Source: a virus. Taken from it: a stretch of 21,210 bases of DNA. The position numbers and the translations under genes are program-made. This document shows, one piece after another, positions 1 to 16,718 of this stretch. The stretch covers positions 1 through 21,210 of the IMG/VR virus record IMGVR_UViG_3300031772_000344; one strand, given 5' to 3'. Every line of letters begins with the position of its first letter. Within the stretch, counting starts at the first letter, position 1. Under the pieces are notes generated by a model. That model had not been told where the DNA came from, did no database searches, and saw only the letters and a program-made list of their open reading frames with translations.

Positions 1-436
1 ATAGCACCATACCCACTTCAAACTGAGTGACCTGTGCCGAGTTAGCTAGAGTAATCGTAACAGTCGGAGTACCACCTGTTACAGTAGACCCCACCTGCCC
101 ACGAGAACCAGTGCCAGACGAGAACAAAGACGCTGCCAAGTCGTTACTCAGATTGCGAAATCCGGTATCTACGTTGAGCTTCGCTTCATCTACGAACGCG
201 CCGGCCTGGTCCTTCGTGGCCTCAAGTAGTTCGTTCGTGATACTAACTAGCTGGTAATTCGAGACTCTATAGACGAAGAACGACGCAAGCGCAGGTGCCG
301 TTTGGTTGTTCTGGGCATTCGCAAACGTCGCAGAACGACCTTGCGGAGTGCCATACACAGTTGGGACGGGAATGTATTTCCCTGCAAAACCACTTGGACT
401 CTCGTCCTTTGGGAGCAGACTGAGTAGCGGATTTTT
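1..436 (-). CDS. Major capsid protein, exon 2 (partial, runs off window)
   Basis: Read on the minus strand from 436 down, this frame stays open to the window edge (145 full codons). It begins KNPLLSLLPKDESPSGFAG and continues with KYIPVPTVYG and PQGRSATFANAQ. That layout (NPLL, K-Y-I-P-V-P, Y-G-x-P-Q-G-R-S-A-T-F) is what I recognise from the N-terminal region of major capsid proteins in one group of short-genome tailed phages, where it follows a start like that of exon 1. The product would form the icosahedral shell. The gene follows the scaffold-like gene, the usual portal-scaffold-capsid order. The N-terminus is split by the sequence at 437-758. The start of exon 2 is provisional: 436 is the only in-frame boundary preceded by a G, but the codons just upstream (TGC TAT AAG, reading C-Y-K) also resemble the family consensus. 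The C-terminal part lies outside the window. Confidence 0.85.
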
Positions 437-758
437 CTTATAGCAAGTTTGTTACCCTAGAGGCTTTTTATCCCCTAGTTCAATCGGTTCGTTTCCCGAT
501 TGTTCGGCGTACATTTTCATCTCTTTCGAGTGTTGGGCACTCTTGGTGGTTTATATTCTGTTCGTTAAAACAGGTTCACCCACTACGCTCTACGATGTCC
601 GTTCTGTTTTGATGGGACGGATTATCTCGGTATTAGCAGTTTCAGCCTCCACCGATATTGCCCAATTTTAATTTGGCCTATAAGTAGTTGACCAAATCCT
701 TCATGTAATCCATTTAATATGAAGGGATCATCTCTATCGCTAGAGAGGGTGGCGATTA
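437..758 (-). ncRNA. Group I intron inside the major capsid gene
   Basis: The two capsid halves are separated by about 322 non-coding bases with stops in the capsid frame; TAA comes immediately after exon 1. On the minus strand the RNA folds as a group I intron. P1 pairs exon end GGUGGU (764-759) with GCCACC (753-748), the last pair being the diagnostic U.G. Hairpins follow: UCUCUA-GCGA-UAGAGA, a 7-bp stem CCUUCAU/AUGAAGG and an 8-bp stem AUUUGGUC/GGCCAAAU. P3 is UUGGGCA (665-659) with UGCCCAA (539-533). P7 is GCGUA (588-584) with UACGC (511-507). P8 is CUC-GAAA-GAG (530-521). Stems between P7 and P3 (GUGG/CCAC and CUGUU/AACAG) resemble P7.1/P7.2 of subgroup IA. P9 is CAAUCGG/CCGAUUG (502-481), followed by CUAGGGG/CCUCUAG (478-457). 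No homing endonuclease is encoded. The 3' splice site is the least certain part. Removing 758-437 keeps the frame. Confidence 0.82.
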
Positions 759-821
759 ACCACCAGAGTAAAGCTCCTTTAAAGCTGCTACTTGGTTGGC
801 TACGTTAGCAAAAGTTGCCAT
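759..821 (-). CDS. Major capsid protein, exon 1 (21 codons)
   Basis: ATG at 821 follows a strong Shine-Dalgarno (GGAGG at 828-832, spacing about 6). It encodes MATFANVANQVAALKELYSGG and then meets TAA at once. The peptide matches the usual opening of this capsid family (a short Ala-rich helix then L-K-E-L-Y), which normally continues into the sequence seen in exon 2. The U at 759 closes a 6-bp P1 helix with the intron guide sequence, so the exon most likely ends here. Without splicing only a 21-residue peptide would be made, so splicing should be essential for making capsid. One caution: homologues as I recall them have several more residues between LKELY and the NPLL motif than the spliced product would have. 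Confidence 0.8.
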
Positions 822-8859: not shown

Positions 8860-9302
8860 ACACACCCCTTGAGGCACCAAGGTGCAGCTAGCGTGCCAAC
8901 CTTAACACGACTCTAGGCGGTGTAAAATGGTTTAGTCGCATTGCATAACGCACTGAGTGTGCATTTTGGTCGATCGTTTTGAGAGCTGGCAGTTTACCGC
9001 GTCTCTAGGTTTCATCTCTAGGTTTCATCTCTAGGTTTCATCTCTAGGTTTCATCTCTAGGTTTCATCTCTAGGTTTCATCTCTAGGTTTATGGTTGTGT
9101 CTCTAGGTTTCGGTGGCCGCGTCGAGGTGGTTACACCAACTATTTTTCAAATTAGGACAAAACTTCGTATCGACTCCTGTTTTATGACGCTCCGGAGACG
9201 AACGTAAAGGCACCGCCAGTTGATTTTGTAGGTCTCAAACGACCGTAGGCCTCAGAGCGCCCACTAAAACGCTCATAAGCCAACCTGCTGCGTCTAAATA
9301 AT
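8860..9302 (-). other. Non-coding region with repeat array, candidate replication origin
   Basis: No gene is supported in these 443 bases. They contain the 8-copy repeat array (9002-9110); a near-palindrome GCACC-AA-GGTGC at 8874-8885 just before the first packaging gene, a possible operator; and a lone partial repeat core CTCTAGG at 8911-8917. The stretch 9130-9170 is AT-rich. For transcription toward 8859, TTTACA with TAAGGT at 16-base spacing is a weak promoter candidate. Lying right after the Rep-like and zinc-motif genes, this is the best origin or partition-site candidate in the window. Confidence 0.5.
9002..9110. repeat. Intergenic iteron-like array (8 copies)
   Basis: Eight perfect copies of TCTCTAGGTTT (minus strand AAACCTAGAGA) start at 9002, 9015, 9028, 9041, 9054, 9067, 9080 and 9100. 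The first seven are spaced by exactly 13 bases with CA between them; the last is offset to 20. The same 11-mer fills two stretches of the Rep-like gene at 9748-11055. Short head-to-tail repeats beside a Rep-like gene are typical of iterons that bind an initiator, or of centromere-like sites for a partition complex. There are no unique spacers, so this is not CRISPR. Confidence 0.85.
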
Positions 9303-9747: not shown

Positions 9748-11055
9748 CTAGTTTACGTTAACTTCCGTTTCCCACGCTGTCCGTAACTTGAGAGCTGCTG
9801 GGACATAGCTGGAAACACGAGCACACCAGACCGCTTTATCAGCGTCCGATAGGGTGGCCTCCCATGCCGTAAACCTCCGCTCTGCGTCGTTATCTTCGTT
9901 TGGTCGTTCAAAGAGACGAGGCTGGCATTGCTTTGGGGTGGGTGGGTCCATCGAAACATATTCTAGCCCCTTGCCAAGGGTCGCTAAAAACACTTTCACT
10001 GGCTCTCGCATGTTACCGCGCTTCGCTTTGACATCGGCTGACCACGCGGTAGCAAATTTAAAAATAGTAGCGGCGTCAAAATGACGCGCCCTGATAAGAT
10101 TGCGAATATGAGGGAGCTTCAAACCATGCGAAGCAAAGTCCGACCAAGGGTATTTGGACAGCTCAAAATCACCCTCACCTGTGTCCGTTTCTGCGATTTT
10201 GTTTCCTGCTGTAGTAGTATTAGATTTACTACTACTACTACTACAGGGAGCCGCATCTCTAGGTTTATCTCTAGGTTTGTCTCTAGGTTTATCTCTAGGT
10301 TTCATCTCTAGGTTTCCTTGGTTAAGCGACTGACATTTAATGTCGGTTATTAACGCATTAGATAGCCTGTATCTAGTCCAACCACCCCTGCCAACCTTAA
10401 CTTCCACACGCTCAACCGCAGAATCTAAAACAAGTTCTTTAATGGCGTTTTGTACTGTTAAAACACTTGCTTCGCATTTAATAGCCATCTCAGAACCAGG
10501 GAGAGGACGTGTTGCTAGAGCCTCACTTAGGATGCATTCCTTATAGATGAATAAAACGATACGTTTTTGAAGTCCTTGAAGTAAAGTAAGGCGCGTCTTA
10601 TCTCTAGGTTTCCTCTCTTTTTTGGTGGTTTTTATCTCTAGGTTTATCTCTAGGTTTGTCTCTAGGTTTATCTCTAGGTTATCTCTAGGTTTCATCTCTA
10701 GGTTTAGAGCCGTGTCTCTAGGTTTATCTCTAGGTTTCTCTCTAGGTTTATCTCTAGGTTTCATCTCTAGATTTAGAGCCTCTAAATTGGATGTTTTTAG
10801 CACCTCATCTCTAGGTTTATTTGGACCTTCTTTAGTGGTATTTTCGACCACTAAAACAGGTTCATTCGGAACCAAACCCACCGTCTCATCTCTAGGTTTA
10901 GTCTCTAGATTTCGCTTCTCATGGTTTTTAAGTGCTATGGGTTTGTCGTATTTTCCATCCTGGAAATGGCCATCGTTCTCCATAAACTCATCCATTAAAG
11001 ATAAGCCGTGGTTTTTTTTCCGTGGTTTTTTTACGTCGTCAGGAATGGTCAACAC
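9748..11055 (-). CDS. Rep-like winged-helix protein with embedded iteron repeats
   Basis: This 435-residue protein starts at GTG 11055 after GGAGG, just downstream of parA. Residues about 155-235 look like a winged helix-turn-helix (LLQGLQKRIVLFIYKECILS, then an S-V-L-T-V-Q-N-A-I-K-E-L recognition helix, then a wing around VKVGRGGWTRYRLSN). This domain is flanked by low-complexity segments (residues about 48-151 and 247-266) made of KPRD and NLEI/NLEM units, which are the translation of 20 copies of the 11-base repeat also found outside the gene. A Ser run (SSSSSK) follows. The C-terminal domain (280-435) is helical, with WSDFASHGLKLPHIRNLI. I infer an initiator-like or partition-partner protein binding its own repeats, by analogy with lambda O and plasmid Rep proteins. 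No family was identified with certainty. Confidence 0.72.
   Translation of the reverse strand: MLTIPDDVKKPRKKNHGLSLMDEFMENDGHFQDGKYDKPIALKNHEKRNLETKPRDETVGLVPNEPVLVVENTTKEGPNKPRDEVLKTSNLEALNLEMKPRDKPREKPRDKPRDTALNLEMKPRDNLEINLETNLEINLEIKTTKKERKPRDKTRLTLLQGLQKRIVLFIYKECILSEALATRPLPGSEMAIKCEASVLTVQNAIKELVLDSAVERVEVKVGRGGWTRYRLSNALITDIKCQSLNQGNLEMKPRDKPRDKPRDKPRDAAPCSSSSSKSNTTTAGNKIAETDTGEGDFELSKYPWSDFASHGLKLPHIRNLIRARHFDAATIFKFATAWSADVKAKRGNMREPVKVFLATLGKGLEYVSMDPPTPKQCQPRLFERPNEDNDAERRFTAWEATLSDADKAVWCARVSSYVPAALKLRTAWETEVNVN
10209..10246. repeat. Perfect inverted repeat with (TAC)6 run inside rep gene
   Basis: CTGTAGTAGTA (10209-10219) is the exact complement of TACTACTACAG (10236-10246); the loop contains three more TAC units. 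It encodes the poly-Ser segment and following Thr residues of the Rep-like protein and lies 10 bases from the second repeat cluster. It could extrude a cruciform, or simply be a slippage-prone microsatellite. Confidence 0.6.
10256..10315. repeat. Intragenic iteron-like cluster 2 (5 copies)
   Basis: Five perfect copies of TCTCTAGGTTT start at 10256, 10268, 10280, 10292 and 10305 (spacings 12, 12, 12, 13). On the coding strand they read as NLEM followed by repeated KPRD, the one 13-base step shifting the repeat from the NLE frame into the PRD frame. They lie after the winged-helix part of the gene. Confidence 0.85.
10601..10912. repeat. Intragenic iteron-like cluster 1 (about 15 copies)
   Basis: Copies of TCTCTAGGTTT start at 10601, 10635, 10647, 10659, 10671 (one T short), 10682, 10695, 10715, 10727, 10739, 10751, 10764 (one mismatch), 10808, 10889 and 10902 (one mismatch). 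Spacing inside the dense part is 11-13 bases. They encode alternating KPRD and NLEI/NLET units in the N-terminal part of the Rep-like protein. The outer copies are more scattered and degenerate, as expected of decaying or founding units. Confidence 0.85.
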
Positions 11056-11083: not shown

Positions 11084-11896
11084 TCACTTCGTTAGACTTT
11101 GGAGTCTTTCAATTTCTGAAGTCACATCATCGGCTAATGTGCGATAGGCTTGCGCCGCCTTGCATTTTCCGAACCCTTCTGAGAGTAATTTTCTCTTAAC
11201 TTGCGCTGTTTTTACTTTTACGTCCTTTGGAATAGGGGAGAAGCACCGCGATATTAACCCTTTCTCAGCTAAATCCTCTAAATCACTAAACACACTCTGA
11301 TCTAGGGTTTGAGCCGCACAATACTGAGTGAGAACCACACCAAGTACGCGCGCCACTGGGTAGTTCAACGCCCCGTAAGGTTTCCTCATTTGATCAATGA
11401 AGTTGTTAGTCTGTTTGCATCCAACAAACGCTAGCAGCTCTGGTAAACATGGGATTAGAATATAATCACAGAATGTTATAGCATTAGCACTAAGTAGGGA
11501 GATGGCTGGTGGGCAATCCATAAGGATGTAATCGTACTCAGACACATCTCCTATATTGGCATTTAGGAGCATCTCAGCACCCTCAACGCAGGAGTTCCTA
11601 GATTCAAAATCTCTCAACTCACGGCCACCAGAAAGAACTAGATCTATATTTGGCCGCACCCGCACCCTAGCGGCCGCTAGGGTAATTGTTCCATCTAGGA
11701 TAGACGCTAGACCACCGCGAGTGTCTGTCAGTTTCACACCGAAGATCGTTCGTTGGCAATTCTGTTCGTCGCCATCTAAAATGAGAATGCGTTTAGAGGG
11801 ATCTTTGAAAGATATGGCGTCAGCAAGTCCAGCCACCGTAACAGTTTTACCGACCCCGCCCTTATGGCACATGACAGCAATTTTTTTTGGTTTCAT
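11084..11896 (-). CDS. parA: ParA-type partition ATPase
   Basis: This is a 270-residue deviant-Walker ATPase of the ParA/MinD family. The P-loop is CHKGGVGKTVTVAG (residues 10-23), with the signature lysine in KGGVGKT; the switch I region is LILDGDEQN (38-46, equivalent to D-x-D-x-Q-x-N) and Walker B is YDYILMDCPPAISL (121-134). No N-terminal DNA-binding domain is present, so it is the short plasmid type. Such proteins dimerise with ATP on nucleoid DNA and move or space plasmids together with a ParB partner bound at a centromere. No ParB is recognisable; the following repeat-associated protein could fill that place. It has its own promoter and is separated by a terminator from the recombination genes. 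Confidence 0.9.
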   Translation of the reverse strand: MKPKKIAVMCHKGGVGKTVTVAGLADAISFKDPSKRILILDGDEQNCQRTIFGVKLTDTRGGLASILDGTITLAAARVRVRPNIDLVLSGGRELRDFESRNSCVEGAEMLLNANIGDVSEYDYILMDCPPAISLLSANAITFCDYILIPCLPELLAFVGCKQTNNFIDQMRKPYGALNYPVARVLGVVLTQYCAAQTLDQSVFSDLEDLAEKGLISRCFSPIPKDVKVKTAQVKRKLLSEGFGKCKAAQAYRTLADDVTSEIERLQSLTK

Positions 11897-12048: not shown

Positions 12049-13149
12049 TTAACCGACCATGTAGTTAGGTACTGGGAGCCTGTGTTTTTTCATTGACTCC
12101 TCGATGGCCGCCCTCTGGAGGCGTGTTGCTATCTCACTAGCTGTCTCAGCTACCTTCAATTGACTGATTGGTGTATTGTGCGATTGTGCATCCTCAGTTA
12201 CTCGAATCGCGGTCGCACCAAAGATATCCTCAGCAACACCCACGATAGGGTGGATGAGCGTCCCAAGATATTCCCTGAACGCAGCAGCTCCCTCCGACGT
12301 CAAGTCACGCATGGTTTGAAGTCCTGTGAACTTCTTAAACACCTCCACGAACTCAACTTGACCTAACCCCTTACTCACACCCAGCGCTGCCAAGTCGTTC
12401 AGGTCTTTAACCGTCGGCTTAGTTATATCCTGACTTCTCGGCTGAGGTTTTACGGCCTCTGGTTTCCGTTCCTCCTGTCCACCATCTAACCACTCCACCA
12501 ACTTCTTACCAGTCGCCTCAGTCACCACACCGTTAAATCCGTCAAATAGACCCGTTCGGTCTTTTGAGCATATAGCGGTGTGATCAACGGCCACGTCTAG
12601 CACTACCGTGAATTCATACTCCATGCCGTCGCGCTGAATGGGAGCCATACCCACCTTGCGCGGCGCTTGTTTGCCGCGTTCAGTGCTTTCGATTATGTAC
12701 TCCTGTTTAGAGCGCATGGTGCATATCGTGTGGATAGGGGCGTTAAGAAGTGCTGCTTTGAACAGCTCGTGCTTCTTAGTAATAGAGCCCCAATTAGTGA
12801 ATGAGTTGCCACCTCTGGAGTCAAGCGCCTCCTTTTCCGCAAGTAACCCACCTTCACCAGACCAGCAGTGAGTAATAGAGTCAATTAACAGGACATCGTA
12901 ACCACCAGCCACCGCTGCATTAATAGCGTCAATGTATTTATTAACGGTATAAGGTGCAGCGATCTCCAGAGTGTCGAACGCTACTTTATCTGAGTAAAGA
13001 GACGCTGACCCGTTCTCCGTATCAATGACAGCAATCTTTTTCCCGATGCCCGCCGCAAGTCTGAGTGCTGACATTGTTTTTCCAGACCCTGACGGTCCTA
13101 TGATTGCGCTTTTCAGTTTAACTTTCTTCTTTACTGCTGTCTTAAACAC
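12049..13149 (-). CDS. RecA-fold ATPase (phage AAA_24 / Sak4-like recombination protein)
   Basis: This 366-residue protein starts at GTG 13149 with AGGAGGTGG upstream. Walker A is IIGPSGSGKTMSALRLA (16-32), then AVIDTENGSASLYSD (40-54) and Walker B YDVLLIDSITHCW (84-96). This order and wording match the single-domain RecA/RAD55-like phage ATPases (PF13479-like, including Sak4-type proteins) found in phage recombination loci. They act on single-stranded DNA with an exonuclease and SSB. The C-terminal third (from about 230) is a charged linker plus helical domain. The gene lies two small genes after a PD-(D/E)XK nuclease, which supports a recombination or replication-repair role. It is the last gene before the terminator. 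Confidence 0.82.
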   Translation of the reverse strand: MFKTAVKKKVKLKSAIIGPSGSGKTMSALRLAAGIGKKIAVIDTENGSASLYSDKVAFDTLEIAAPYTVNKYIDAINAAVAGGYDVLLIDSITHCWSGEGGLLAEKEALDSRGGNSFTNWGSITKKHELFKAALLNAPIHTICTMRSKQEYIIESTERGKQAPRKVGMAPIQRDGMEYEFTVVLDVAVDHTAICSKDRTGLFDGFNGVVTEATGKKLVEWLDGGQEERKPEAVKPQPRSQDITKPTVKDLNDLAALGVSKGLGQVEFVEVFKKFTGLQTMRDLTSEGAAAFREYLGTLIHPIVGVAEDIFGATAIRVTEDAQSHNTPISQLKVAETASEIATRLQRAAIEESMKKHRLPVPNYMVG

Positions 13150-13456: not shown

Positions 13457-13858
13457 TTAAAAATCCTTCCGTTGTTCGTTGTTAGTTTTTGCTTCTTTAA
13501 ATAAGTGTCGTCTGATTACGGCATCTTCTGTTCTTCTAGTGTGTGTATGTCCACCACTGACCGGCCTTACTCCATTCACGCTATAGACTAAACCACGCCG
13601 GGTCATGTCACACATGCTGGTTGCATAGTGAACATCGGAACCAGGCAGAACCCGAAACTCCAACCCGCACCCACATGCGCAAACCCTTGCTTCTAGTTGC
13701 GCCACGAGGGTAGTGAGGTTGTCCCTTACGGTCTGGTAGGTAGGTCCAACGTCTTTCATCAACCCAGCCGTCACAGCCTCTTTCCATTTCTGGTGCCTTG
13801 CGCGCTCCTGTTGTTCCACTTCTGCGATTCGTCTTCTTTGCTCATTAGTTATGCCCAT
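13457..13858 (-). CDS. Small cysteine-motif protein in recombination operon
   Basis: ATG 13858 is chosen because it overlaps the preceding gene by only 10 bases; the frame is open to 13903 but that would overlap by 55. The 133-residue product begins MGITNEQRRRIAEVEQQERA, a long helix, and has a central RVCACGCGLEFRVL with three closely spaced cysteines and a later MCDM, followed by a His-rich tail (SGGHTHTRRTE). The cysteines resemble the CxCGC knuckle seen in small phage zinc proteins that act on DNA. No family is assigned. Confidence 0.55.
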   Translation of the reverse strand: MGITNEQRRRIAEVEQQERARHQKWKEAVTAGLMKDVGPTYQTVRDNLTTLVAQLEARVCACGCGLEFRVLPGSDVHYATSMCDMTRRGLVYSVNGVRPVSGGHTHTRRTEDAVIRRHLFKEAKTNNEQRKDF

Positions 13859-14724
13859 TTTGGCACCCGCACAGTCTGGATAGCGTTGGAGTAGGATGGC
13901 CACTGATTTTCAGCAACGCACACGCTGTACTCAGCGAGGTACTGACGGTACTTGGCACGACCTAACTCAATATCCTCCGGAGGGAGCTCCATAACCGACA
14001 CCCCGTAAGGCGCCGCTTTCTCAGCGACCACAAACAGGAAGCGATTCACCTGGAACGCACTCGCTAACTCAGGAGAGGCCGCCGCCGCCGCCGTCAAGCC
14101 ATCCAAGTAAAACGCCGCCTGAATATGGTAGCCAAAGTTTGCGACAGCTCTCCCAAAATCCTCGCTCGTGGCATTCCCCGACGTGGTTTTTAGGTCTAGG
14201 ATAGTGCCAGCCGTGTAAGCGTCCAAGCGACCCTTGCAAAACACGCCCGTTTCAGCGTCTGTCCAGAAAAATGCCAGCTCCTTAAGGGAATGTCTGAGCA
14301 TTTCCGCCACCGCACTTTTCGCTACACCATCGGCAATGCCTGTGCAGGTTGCGATGTCACTCACGTTAAGAGGCGTTTTACCCGCGTTAGCCTCCTCCCA
14401 AAGTGCGTACTCCGCTTTTCCTGCGTTGCTGTTGCGCTTAATGTCAGGAGCCACGCAGTATTTCGTTGGAAACAACTCAGGCTCAAGGACCAGTGTGTGT
14501 ACCGCAGTCCCTAATTCCTGCGCTTTCGTTGTCTCATTACCACCCTCCATCGCGGCCTTAGCGTGGGCAGGGGAGTATTTAAATTCCTTTAACAGAGACT
14601 GGCTAACGCCTGGTGCCGCTCTATAGACGGCCTCCTCTAATTCAAAGATTCCTTTCAGATGTCCAGTGCGGTGCAGGTCATTGACCCATTCAAGAGTTAA
14701 TTTGTGTGTCATAAAAAATTCCAT
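13849..14724 (-). CDS. PD-(D/E)XK exonuclease-like protein (DUF3799/RecB-type)
   Basis: This 291-residue protein has GTAVHTLVLEPELF (72-85), typical of the N-terminal part of the phage DUF3799 nucleases, then the active-site series CKGRLDAY (163-170, catalytic D168), ILDLKTTSG (175-183, D177 and K179) and the YHIQAAFYLDGL helix (199-210) with the Y-x-x-Q motif IV. All nuclease residues are present. These enzymes resemble the nuclease domain of RecB/RecE and resect double-stranded ends for single-strand annealing or pairing. It shares an operon with a RecA-fold ATPase. ATG 14712 (MTHKL) is an alternative start with slightly better Shine-Dalgarno spacing. Confidence 0.85.
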   Translation of the reverse strand: MEFFMTHKLTLEWVNDLHRTGHLKGIFELEEAVYRAAPGVSQSLLKEFKYSPAHAKAAMEGGNETTKAQELGTAVHTLVLEPELFPTKYCVAPDIKRNSNAGKAEYALWEEANAGKTPLNVSDIATCTGIADGVAKSAVAEMLRHSLKELAFFWTDAETGVFCKGRLDAYTAGTILDLKTTSGNATSEDFGRAVANFGYHIQAAFYLDGLTAAAAASPELASAFQVNRFLFVVAEKAAPYGVSVMELPPEDIELGRAKYRQYLAEYSVCVAENQWPSYSNAIQTVRVPKWA

Positions 14725-16076: not shown

Positions 16077-16391
16077 ATGACTAATGAGGAAAATATGAAG
16101 AAAAAATATGTGATGGTTCGGACTTACGCAATGGGAGTTTTCGCGGGAACGCTGGAGCCGGAAAGCACGGAAACGTGCAAGGTTTTAACGAACGCCCGCC
16201 GTATCTGGCACTGGAGTGGCGCTGCTAGCCTAAGTCAACTCGCAACTGATGGTACGAGTGATCCAGAAAATTGTAAATTTCCGTGTGAGGTTGCCCGCGT
16301 AGAGCTAACCTCGCCGCAGGGATTTGAGGTTTTAGACGTGACGCCAACGGCGCGGAAATCCATCGCGGAGGTGGAAATATGGGCAAAATAA
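16077..16391 (+). CDS. DUF6948-type phage protein
   Basis: This 104-residue protein starts at ATG 16077 behind GGGGGA. It matches by eye a small family common in phages and prophages: VRTYAMGVFAGTLE near residues 14-27, then NARRIWHWSGAASLSQLA (38-55) with the conserved R-R-I-W-x-W-S-G-A-A core, then NCKFP and a C-terminal TARKSIAEVEIWA. The family has no known biochemical role. It is probably a small beta-rich virion-assembly or regulatory protein. The stop codon lies inside the start of the next, Gly-rich gene. Confidence 0.8.
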   Translation: MTNEENMKKKYVMVRTYAMGVFAGTLEPESTETCKVLTNARRIWHWSGAASLSQLATDGTSDPENCKFPCEVARVELTSPQGFEVLDVTPTARKSIAEVEIWAK

Positions 16392-16615
16392 ATTCAGGCG
16401 CGGGCTCGAGTTCGGGTGGGGGCGCGGGCTCGAGTTCGGGTGGGGGTTCGGGTTCGGGCGATGGTGGGGGTTCGAGTTCGGGCGAGGGTGAGGGTGGGGG
16501 TTCGAACTGGTGCGATGGTGGGGGTTCGATCTGGGGTGAGGGCGATGGTGGGGGTTCGAGTTCGGGTGAGGGCTCGGACGATGGCGTGGGTGGAGAAGAG
16601 ATGGATCATGACTGA
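16379..16615 (+). CDS. Gly/Ser-rich low-complexity protein overlapping DUF6948 gene
   Basis: This 78-residue protein starts at ATG 16379, inside the last codons of the preceding gene (13-base overlap), so it is translationally coupled. GGAGGTGGAA lies just upstream as Shine-Dalgarno. It is almost entirely Gly, Ser, Asp and Glu, in units such as GGGSSSGEG, interrupted by NWCDGGGS and IWGEGDGG, and ends in VGGEEMDHD. The DNA is a degenerate minisatellite built from GGTTCGGG-like units. From memory, similar Gly-rich frames occur next to DUF6948 genes in other phages, which argues against chance, but I cannot check that here. The function is unknown; a disordered linker or ligand-binding chain is possible. 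Confidence 0.6.
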   Translation: MGKINSGAGSSSGGGAGSSSGGGSGSGDGGGSSSGEGEGGGSNWCDGGGSIWGEGDGGGSSSGEGSDDGVGGEEMDHD

Positions 16616-16718
16616 ACCGACCTGCCAGCGCCACGCTAAACAGATCGGCCCATCGGCATAGAAGATTCAAATATAGCGAGCTTATTTAGAAAATGATAGG
16701 TTAACATAATAAATCTTA

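Follow-up and report, generated by a model that had tools for sequence, protein, structure and literature searches.

Core-less mini-introns in phage capsid genes, probably served by the core of a downstream group I intron

The major capsid gene in a 21,210-nucleotide stretch of viral DNA (IMG/VR record IMGVR_UViG_3300031772_000344, positions 1 to 21,210; hereinafter the window) is interrupted twice near its start, by a 48-nt insert that carries a splice-site guide without a catalytic core (hereinafter designated IVS1) and by a 247-nt group I intron (IVS2). Sequence comparison establishes the two inserts with their ends and guide pairings, the core of IVS2, and the co-occurrence and order of such elements in related phages. 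Inserts of the first kind, hereinafter minis, are most likely core-less group I introns that are spliced in cis by the core of the intron downstream. This phage family probably operates a shared-core system, in which full introns supply the core and guide-only minis of 30–59 nt are removed by the downstream core of the same transcript, such that one ribozyme splices at least two introns at different sites.

The capsid-like frame opens at position 821 on the minus strand and meets a TAA at 758–756, and capsid sequence is back near position 443, much as described in an earlier note on this DNA, which put the resumption at about 436. Upstream of the interrupted gene, on the same strand, are genes for a portal protein (PF23899) and a terminase, and the interrupted gene has a large family of relatives among uncultivated phages. 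Neither Pfam nor PHROGs names it, and its protein, which has no cultured relative, matches none of 50,697 phage records and nothing in bacterial genome contigs; the label ‘capsid’ rests on gene order and sequence features, without a database match. The same layout recurs in a twin contig (L002/L199) whose capsid exon is 99% identical, arguing that the interruption is more than chance. A spliced protein alignment made for this question, with splice-site preference set to none, places IVS1 and IVS2 as follows, one-base ambiguities at the ends being fixed by the group I rule (U before the intron, G at its end).

759–821, minus strand: exon 1, the first 21 codons of the major capsid gene (MATFANVANQVAALKELYSGG), homologous in frame to 58 distinct capsid alleles that have no interruption
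711–758, minus strand: IVS1, core-less mini-intron of 48 nt, preceded by U and ending in G, by spliced protein alignment
691–710, minus strand: exon 2, a micro-exon of 20 nt (GATTACATGAAGGATTTGGT; D Y M K D L plus 2 nt of V) that fits the family consensus DYMKDLV
444–690, minus strand: IVS2, group I intron of 247 nt without an ORF, last base G444
1–443, minus strand: exon 3 of the capsid gene, ending at the contig edge

Across the interrupted region, intron-less homologues read KELYSGDSYMKDLVYKKN. Several of them (L004, L005, L003 and others) contain the seven residues DYMKDLV, which the window encodes at 710–691, and the uninterrupted L004 and L005 (MATFANVTNQVAALKELYSGDSYMKDLVYKKNALLSLLPKDES) imply that about seven residues are needed in the window between LYSGG and YKKN. 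In the spliced alignment a capsid protein of normal length is restored only when IVS1 and IVS2 are both out and the micro-exon is kept. The single 322-nt intron with ends at 758 and 437 that the earlier note proposed resolves into IVS1 (48 nt), the 20-nt exon and IVS2 (247 nt): two intervening sequences had been merged and the micro-exon swallowed, so that both junctions were wrongly paired. Splicing 758 to 437, with GGT followed by AAAAATCCG, would cost the protein nine conserved residues (DYMKDLVYK). Alignment with intron-less homologues, the check suggested at the time, thus bears out the interruption itself and replaces the one intron with two that flank a micro-exon.

Sequence and covariation identify IVS2 as a group I intron with an IA-like architecture, which is predicted to be self-splicing. 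Its elements are listed below.

670–684, minus strand: guide (IGS) of IVS2; 684–678 pairs with exon 3 CUAUAAG (P10, 7 bp)
677 and 676–670, minus strand: P1 part of the guide; G677 wobbles with U691, and 676–670 pairs with the end of exon 2 (8 bp including the wobble)
533–665, minus strand: P3, 665–660 UUGGGC with 538–533 GCCCAA; double changes in 5 of 6 pairs over 26 introns
628–654, minus strand: P4 (654–651/631–628) with P5 inside, from comparison of 26 introns
594–626, minus strand: P6 (626–624/596–594) and P6a (621–617/602–598); 7 of 8 pairs covary
507–588, minus strand: P7 (588–584 GCGUA with 511–507 UACGC), the guanosine site, in a pseudoknot with P3; 100% of cells paired, 2 pairs covary
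546–583, minus strand: P7.1-type hairpin in the interval from P7 to P3′ (IA-like); 4 of 4 outer pairs covary
521–530, minus strand: P8, CUC-GAAA-GAG, by direct reading; the helix covaries
457–502, minus strand: P9 (502–496/487–481) and P9.1 (478–472/463–457), by direct reading

P1 joins the last bases of exon 2, GAUUUGGU, to GCCAAAUU over 8 bp, with a U.G at the cleavage point; P10 joins the first bases of exon 3, CUAUAAG, over 7 bp to CUUAUAG, which directly precedes the P1 guide. When the core was aligned with those of 25 relatives and the P3–P8 structure, including the P3/P7 pseudoknot, was counted over the 26 cores, 96.9% of cells were paired and 29 of 39 pairs showed double changes; the covariation score was 0.60, compared with 0.03–0.11 (maximum 0.106) after sliding partners. 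The empty site is present in the 58 distinct uninterrupted capsid alleles. The claim that a major capsid gene harbours a group I intron lacking a homing endonuclease is thus upheld by P3/P7 covariation, by exact P1 and P10 and by the empty site in relatives, and the stems it named (P3, P7, a GAAA-capped P8, a P7.1-like stem and P9) are present in a stretch that folds well beyond chance (z = –5.2). The P1 with a U.G that it named exists but is that of IVS1; the core is part of IVS2, where a separate P1 is present. No homing endonuclease ORF is present in IVS2; many introns of relatives carry an ORF after P7′, and the one such ORF tested, in the full intron of L166, is of Endonuclease_7 type (PF02945, E = 5e-22).

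The Rfam group I model RF00028 gives no match in the window at E ≤ 10 and none among the relatives at E ≤ 1, while in a positive control it recovers the T4 nrdD intron with 105 bits, suggesting that this intron family is not covered by Rfam. Absence of a match had been named beforehand as speaking against an intron; the search did come back empty, but the model used appears unable to recognise this family. When the window was read as other RNA elements, only spurious snoRNA and miRNA matches (E > 1) came up. In build, IVS2 resembles the T4 subgroup IA introns (nrdD and td), sharing the P3/P7 core, the extra hairpin between P7 and P3′, the P9 hairpins and the terminal G; nrdD is found by RF00028, whereas the family described here is not matched at E = 1. 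Neither intron will be detected by annotation based on Rfam or on ORFs, which will also get the beginning of these capsid genes wrong.

IVS1 has the substrate half of such an intron.

748–758, minus strand: guide (IGS) of IVS1; 758–754 UAAUC pairs with exon 2 GAUUA (P10)
748–753, minus strand: P1 part of the guide; G753 wobbles with U759, and 752–748 CCACC pairs with exon 1 GGUGG
731–746, minus strand: hairpin UCUCUA-GCGA-UAGAGA (GNRA loop) within IVS1, from the minimum free energy fold; other minis are without it

The guide forms a P1 of 6 bp and a P10 of 5 bp (p = 0.003 against shuffles, with IVS1 taken alone), and the P1 hairpin also appears in the minimum free energy fold of the exon plus mini. 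A P3–P8 core of its own is absent: 37 nt are left after P1, 16 of which form the separate hairpin. With no space for P3–P8, the catalyst would have to be borrowed, and from its sequence IVS1 appears to work like a group I intron without the defining core rather than as a self-contained member of the class. The GNRA-capped hairpin at 731–746 (minus strand) could conceivably dock to the neighbouring core. Folding also predicts a stable local hairpin, 723–717/705–699, that would sequester some of the micro-exon in competition with the P10 of IVS1.

We parsed the whole capsid gene in relatives, using the 58 distinct uninterrupted alleles as templates, and obtained 34 distinct interrupted alleles, 24 of which (repeats of the same mini set removed) contain one or two inserts of 30–59 nt. 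These minis group into 22 clusters by sequence and site. A placement with U before the insert and G at its end is possible for all 22 (joint chance about 1.5e-13 for shuffled inserts). Summed over 16 minis, P1 plus P10 pairing reaches 185 positions, compared with 76.6 ± 5.5 for dinucleotide shuffles, a difference of about 20 standard deviations, and the largest sum in 1000 shuffles is 97. Taken singly and with no P1 mismatch allowed, 5 of the 16 (L206, L222, L226 and both of L225) lie at or above p = 0.018. A T precedes the final G in 16 of 22 minis and in 42 of 47 full introns, such that the 3′ ends of the two kinds look alike. The tails of the minis are short and unlike one another, and sites, guides and tails differ between clusters.

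Larger sets of inserts also occur. The capsid gene of L050 reads mini, full, full, mini, full and that of L299 mini, mini, full, full; these two, together with L268, L286 and L015, have three to five inserts per capsid gene, some of them near the 3′ end (template codons 293–424). At capsid codons ~48–55, L194, L044 and L160 have a 6-nt insert, TAACTG, followed by a 14-nt micro-exon, and the next full intron has two guides, GATGCCGG and GTATTTGCCAGC, the second of which fits the upstream site. Read from sequence, this is apparently an extreme variant, with the guide of the mini contained in the following intron. The inserts of L202, L207 and L225 at template codon 15 measure 637–888 nt and start with AAA(C/G)T; the usual 5′ guide is absent, the core pattern is unmatched, and they are possibly another intron type or contain a large P1 insertion.

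The distribution of minis follows that of full introns. Twenty-four alleles have both, nine have full introns only, 58 have neither and none has a mini only; some alleles were found via the core pattern itself, which guarantees a full intron in them, and the main set was found via capsid peptides and is free of that bias. Each mini is followed 3′ by a full intron of its own gene, and the final insert is a full intron in all cases; the exon between mini and full intron measures 20–303 nt. The co-occurrence (Fisher, about 6e-14 or smaller with cases collapsed) and the downstream rule (P = 3.6e-6 with cases collapsed by mini similarity) both have p-values that are optimistic and overstate independence because the alleles share ancestry. 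Two core families are involved. The second is represented in L237, where a mini accompanies an intron of 203 nt; P3 covaries in this family too, indicating dependence on a core and not on one intron lineage. Taken across these genes, the pattern suggests that one RNA catalyst removes several introns.

When 119 loci (2 Mb on both strands) were scanned ab initio for P1/P10 pairing, a weak test of low power, no convincing mini was seen outside capsid genes; the scan gave 33 matches upstream of cores compared with about 16 expected, the excess being the capsid minis. The P4–P5 core pattern lies outside recognisable capsid N-termini in 98 of 125 cases among the matches listed (L047–L165), and the intron family with this pattern may have invaded other genes.

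Under the mechanism that we propose, the capsid pre-mRNA would contain two group I-type introns. IVS2 would remove itself, guanosine attacking after U691 and the end of exon 2 then attacking after G444. IVS1 would provide the substrate part only, namely the terminal G and a guide giving P10 and P1 with U.G at the cut, and the catalyst for it would most likely be the IVS2 core in the same transcript. The P1/P10 helix of IVS1 would dock in that core first, and only afterwards would the core turn to the P1 of IVS2 and excise itself; exon 1 (63 nt), exon 2 (20 nt) and exon 3 would be joined to give ...LYSGGDYMKDLVYKKN... From the features above we infer that splicing occurs, that the IVS2 core carries it out and that it does so in cis. 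Action in cis fits the observed polarity, because a downstream core is still present for an upstream mini, while an upstream core may already be excised. We know of no example of a group I core that splices a neighbouring intron at both ends.

Minis probably arose by loss of the core after a second intron had entered downstream, because phages differ in whether a given site is occupied by a mini or by a full intron. At GAYTTGGT|CTAYAAG, L166 and L168 have a mini where the window and L130 have a full intron; at GCNGGT|AARTA, L218 has the mini, and full introns are present in L166, L055, L146, L244 and L266. Guides match at both sites. In the simplest history, a second intron would home in downstream and the redundant upstream core would then be lost. 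One guess is that a mini persists by blocking re-invasion of its site by the homing intron.

Among other explanations, splicing of the mini in trans fares best, though it is improbable: an excised IVS2 ribozyme, or another group I ribozyme of the cell, would act on the P1/P10 hairpin of IVS1. Group I ribozymes are able to act on substrates in trans, and covalent linkage is not strictly needed because the mini has its own guide. Such action, however, predicts neither the restriction of minis to genes with a full intron nor their constant upstream position, and it does predict minis positioned 3′ of full introns, or in genes other than the capsid gene, where the low-power scan found none convincing.

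Fungal rDNA supplies a precedent for a second explanation, that IVS1 is a self-sufficient degenerate group I intron aided only by exon structure, which we regard as quite unlikely. The degenerate PaSSU introns and those of Arthonia lapidicola and Porpidia are 63–78 nt long, monophyletic, confined to two rDNA sites and end in U, with P7 drawn inside (PMC3160393). PaSSU introns of 63–75 nt, with P1, P7 and P10, are reported to be spliced in vitro via the group I pathway (PMC3160393), and like the phage minis they are very small and have a P10 and a P1 with G.U. By contrast, the minis are shorter still (30–59 nt), lie in a protein gene at many sites between unrelated exons, all fit a terminal G rather than U, and always accompany a full intron; self-sufficiency would not predict so strict a downstream partner.

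Nor does it appear at all likely that the capsid gene is decaying or restarted, with exon 1 as a leader peptide and translation resuming at ATG 713. Although ATGGATTAC could act as a start codon, the restarted frame would still run into IVS2, conservation in the family extends to the N-terminal 25 residues of the protein, and precise guide pairings are kept in the twin contigs and in many relatives.

Programmed bypassing, in which the ribosome would skip IVS1, has very little in its favour. In T4 gene 60 and the mitochondrial byps of yeast, a non-coding insert of about 30–50 nt within coding sequence is passed over in translation, and matched take-off and landing codons are required. The minis resemble these inserts in size, IVS1 recalls T4 gene 60 in the stop codon right after its junction, and hairpins are present. 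Matched codons, however, are absent in the minis inspected (GGT versus ATG in the window, and likewise in other in-phase minis); the conserved features are instead the U.G, P1, P10 and the final G, and co-occurrence with group I introns would go unexplained.

As remote as bypassing is a single 322-nt group I intron with exon 1 joined downstream and the micro-exon lost or a chance match, because, even though the P1 of IVS1 stands ahead of a true core, the 20-nt exon is the exact family consensus with its own perfect P1/P10 junction, and a direct junction of exons 1 and 3 at G444 is out of frame. Exon skipping, considered for the minis generally, would shift the frame in 12 of 27, the window's included.

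Elsewhere in the window, three genes with Pfam matches lie on the same strand.

11084–11896, minus strand: ParA-like ATPase (PF13614)
12049–13149, minus strand: AAA_24 RecA-like ATPase (PF13479)
13849–14724, minus strand: PD-(D/E)XK nuclease (PF12684)

Tandem repeats of 12–13 bp (TCTCTAGGTTT) occur at 9002–9090, 10255–10315 and 10631–10775, and within the ORF at 9748–11055 (minus strand), which has no Pfam match, tandem repeats encode runs of KPRD/NLEIKPRD. The 12–13-bp repeats are possible iterons or part of a repeat-rich replication protein. GC-rich repeats of 24, 30 and 54 bp at 16332–16670 and 16379–16615 leave several frames open, Gly-Ser-rich on the plus strand and His-Pro/Arg-Thr-rich on the minus strand.

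Introns in phage genes have precedents. In phage Twort, several group I introns occur per gene, with exon skipping, and none of them is known to lack a core, unlike the minis. Group I introns occur in the capsid genes of mycobacteriophage LittleE and lactococcal phage Tuc2009, and the tail gene of mycobacteriophage BAKA has one of 265 bp without a homing endonuclease (PMC3706429), so the small size and missing endonuclease that the earlier note called unusual are not exceptional; what is unusual, and escaped the note, is the core-less 48-nt intron next to a full one. Those introns resemble IVS2 in interrupting a structural gene, with U ending exon 1 and G ending the intron, BAKA's also in its lack of an endonuclease; each is treated as complete, a core-less companion is unreported, and the introns described here are missed by RF00028. 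Phage capsid-gene introns, short endonuclease-free introns and several introns per gene are all known (PMC3706429, PMC11878797). The shared-core architecture appears to be new, capsid-gene and endonuclease-free phage introns being known already. The open-access literature yielded no report of core-less group I introns that use a neighbour's core, the fungal PaSSU work aside, which is weak evidence of novelty.

In the accepted view, a group I intron is a self-contained unit equipped with its own ribozyme. In group II chemistry, by comparison, euglenid group III and spliceosomal introns are reduced to recognition elements while another RNA catalyses. To our knowledge, introns served by a shared catalyst have no group I counterpart. 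If the reading proposed here is true, group I introns would have evolved a division of labour so far tied to group II descendants and the spliceosome, and the shared-core system would parallel the group II step toward introns served by a common catalyst. At less than 500 nt the system can be rebuilt in a test tube, making testable the question of how a self-splicing intron becomes the substrate of a shared catalyst, and its short guides and one core would be natural modules for multi-site RNA splicing.
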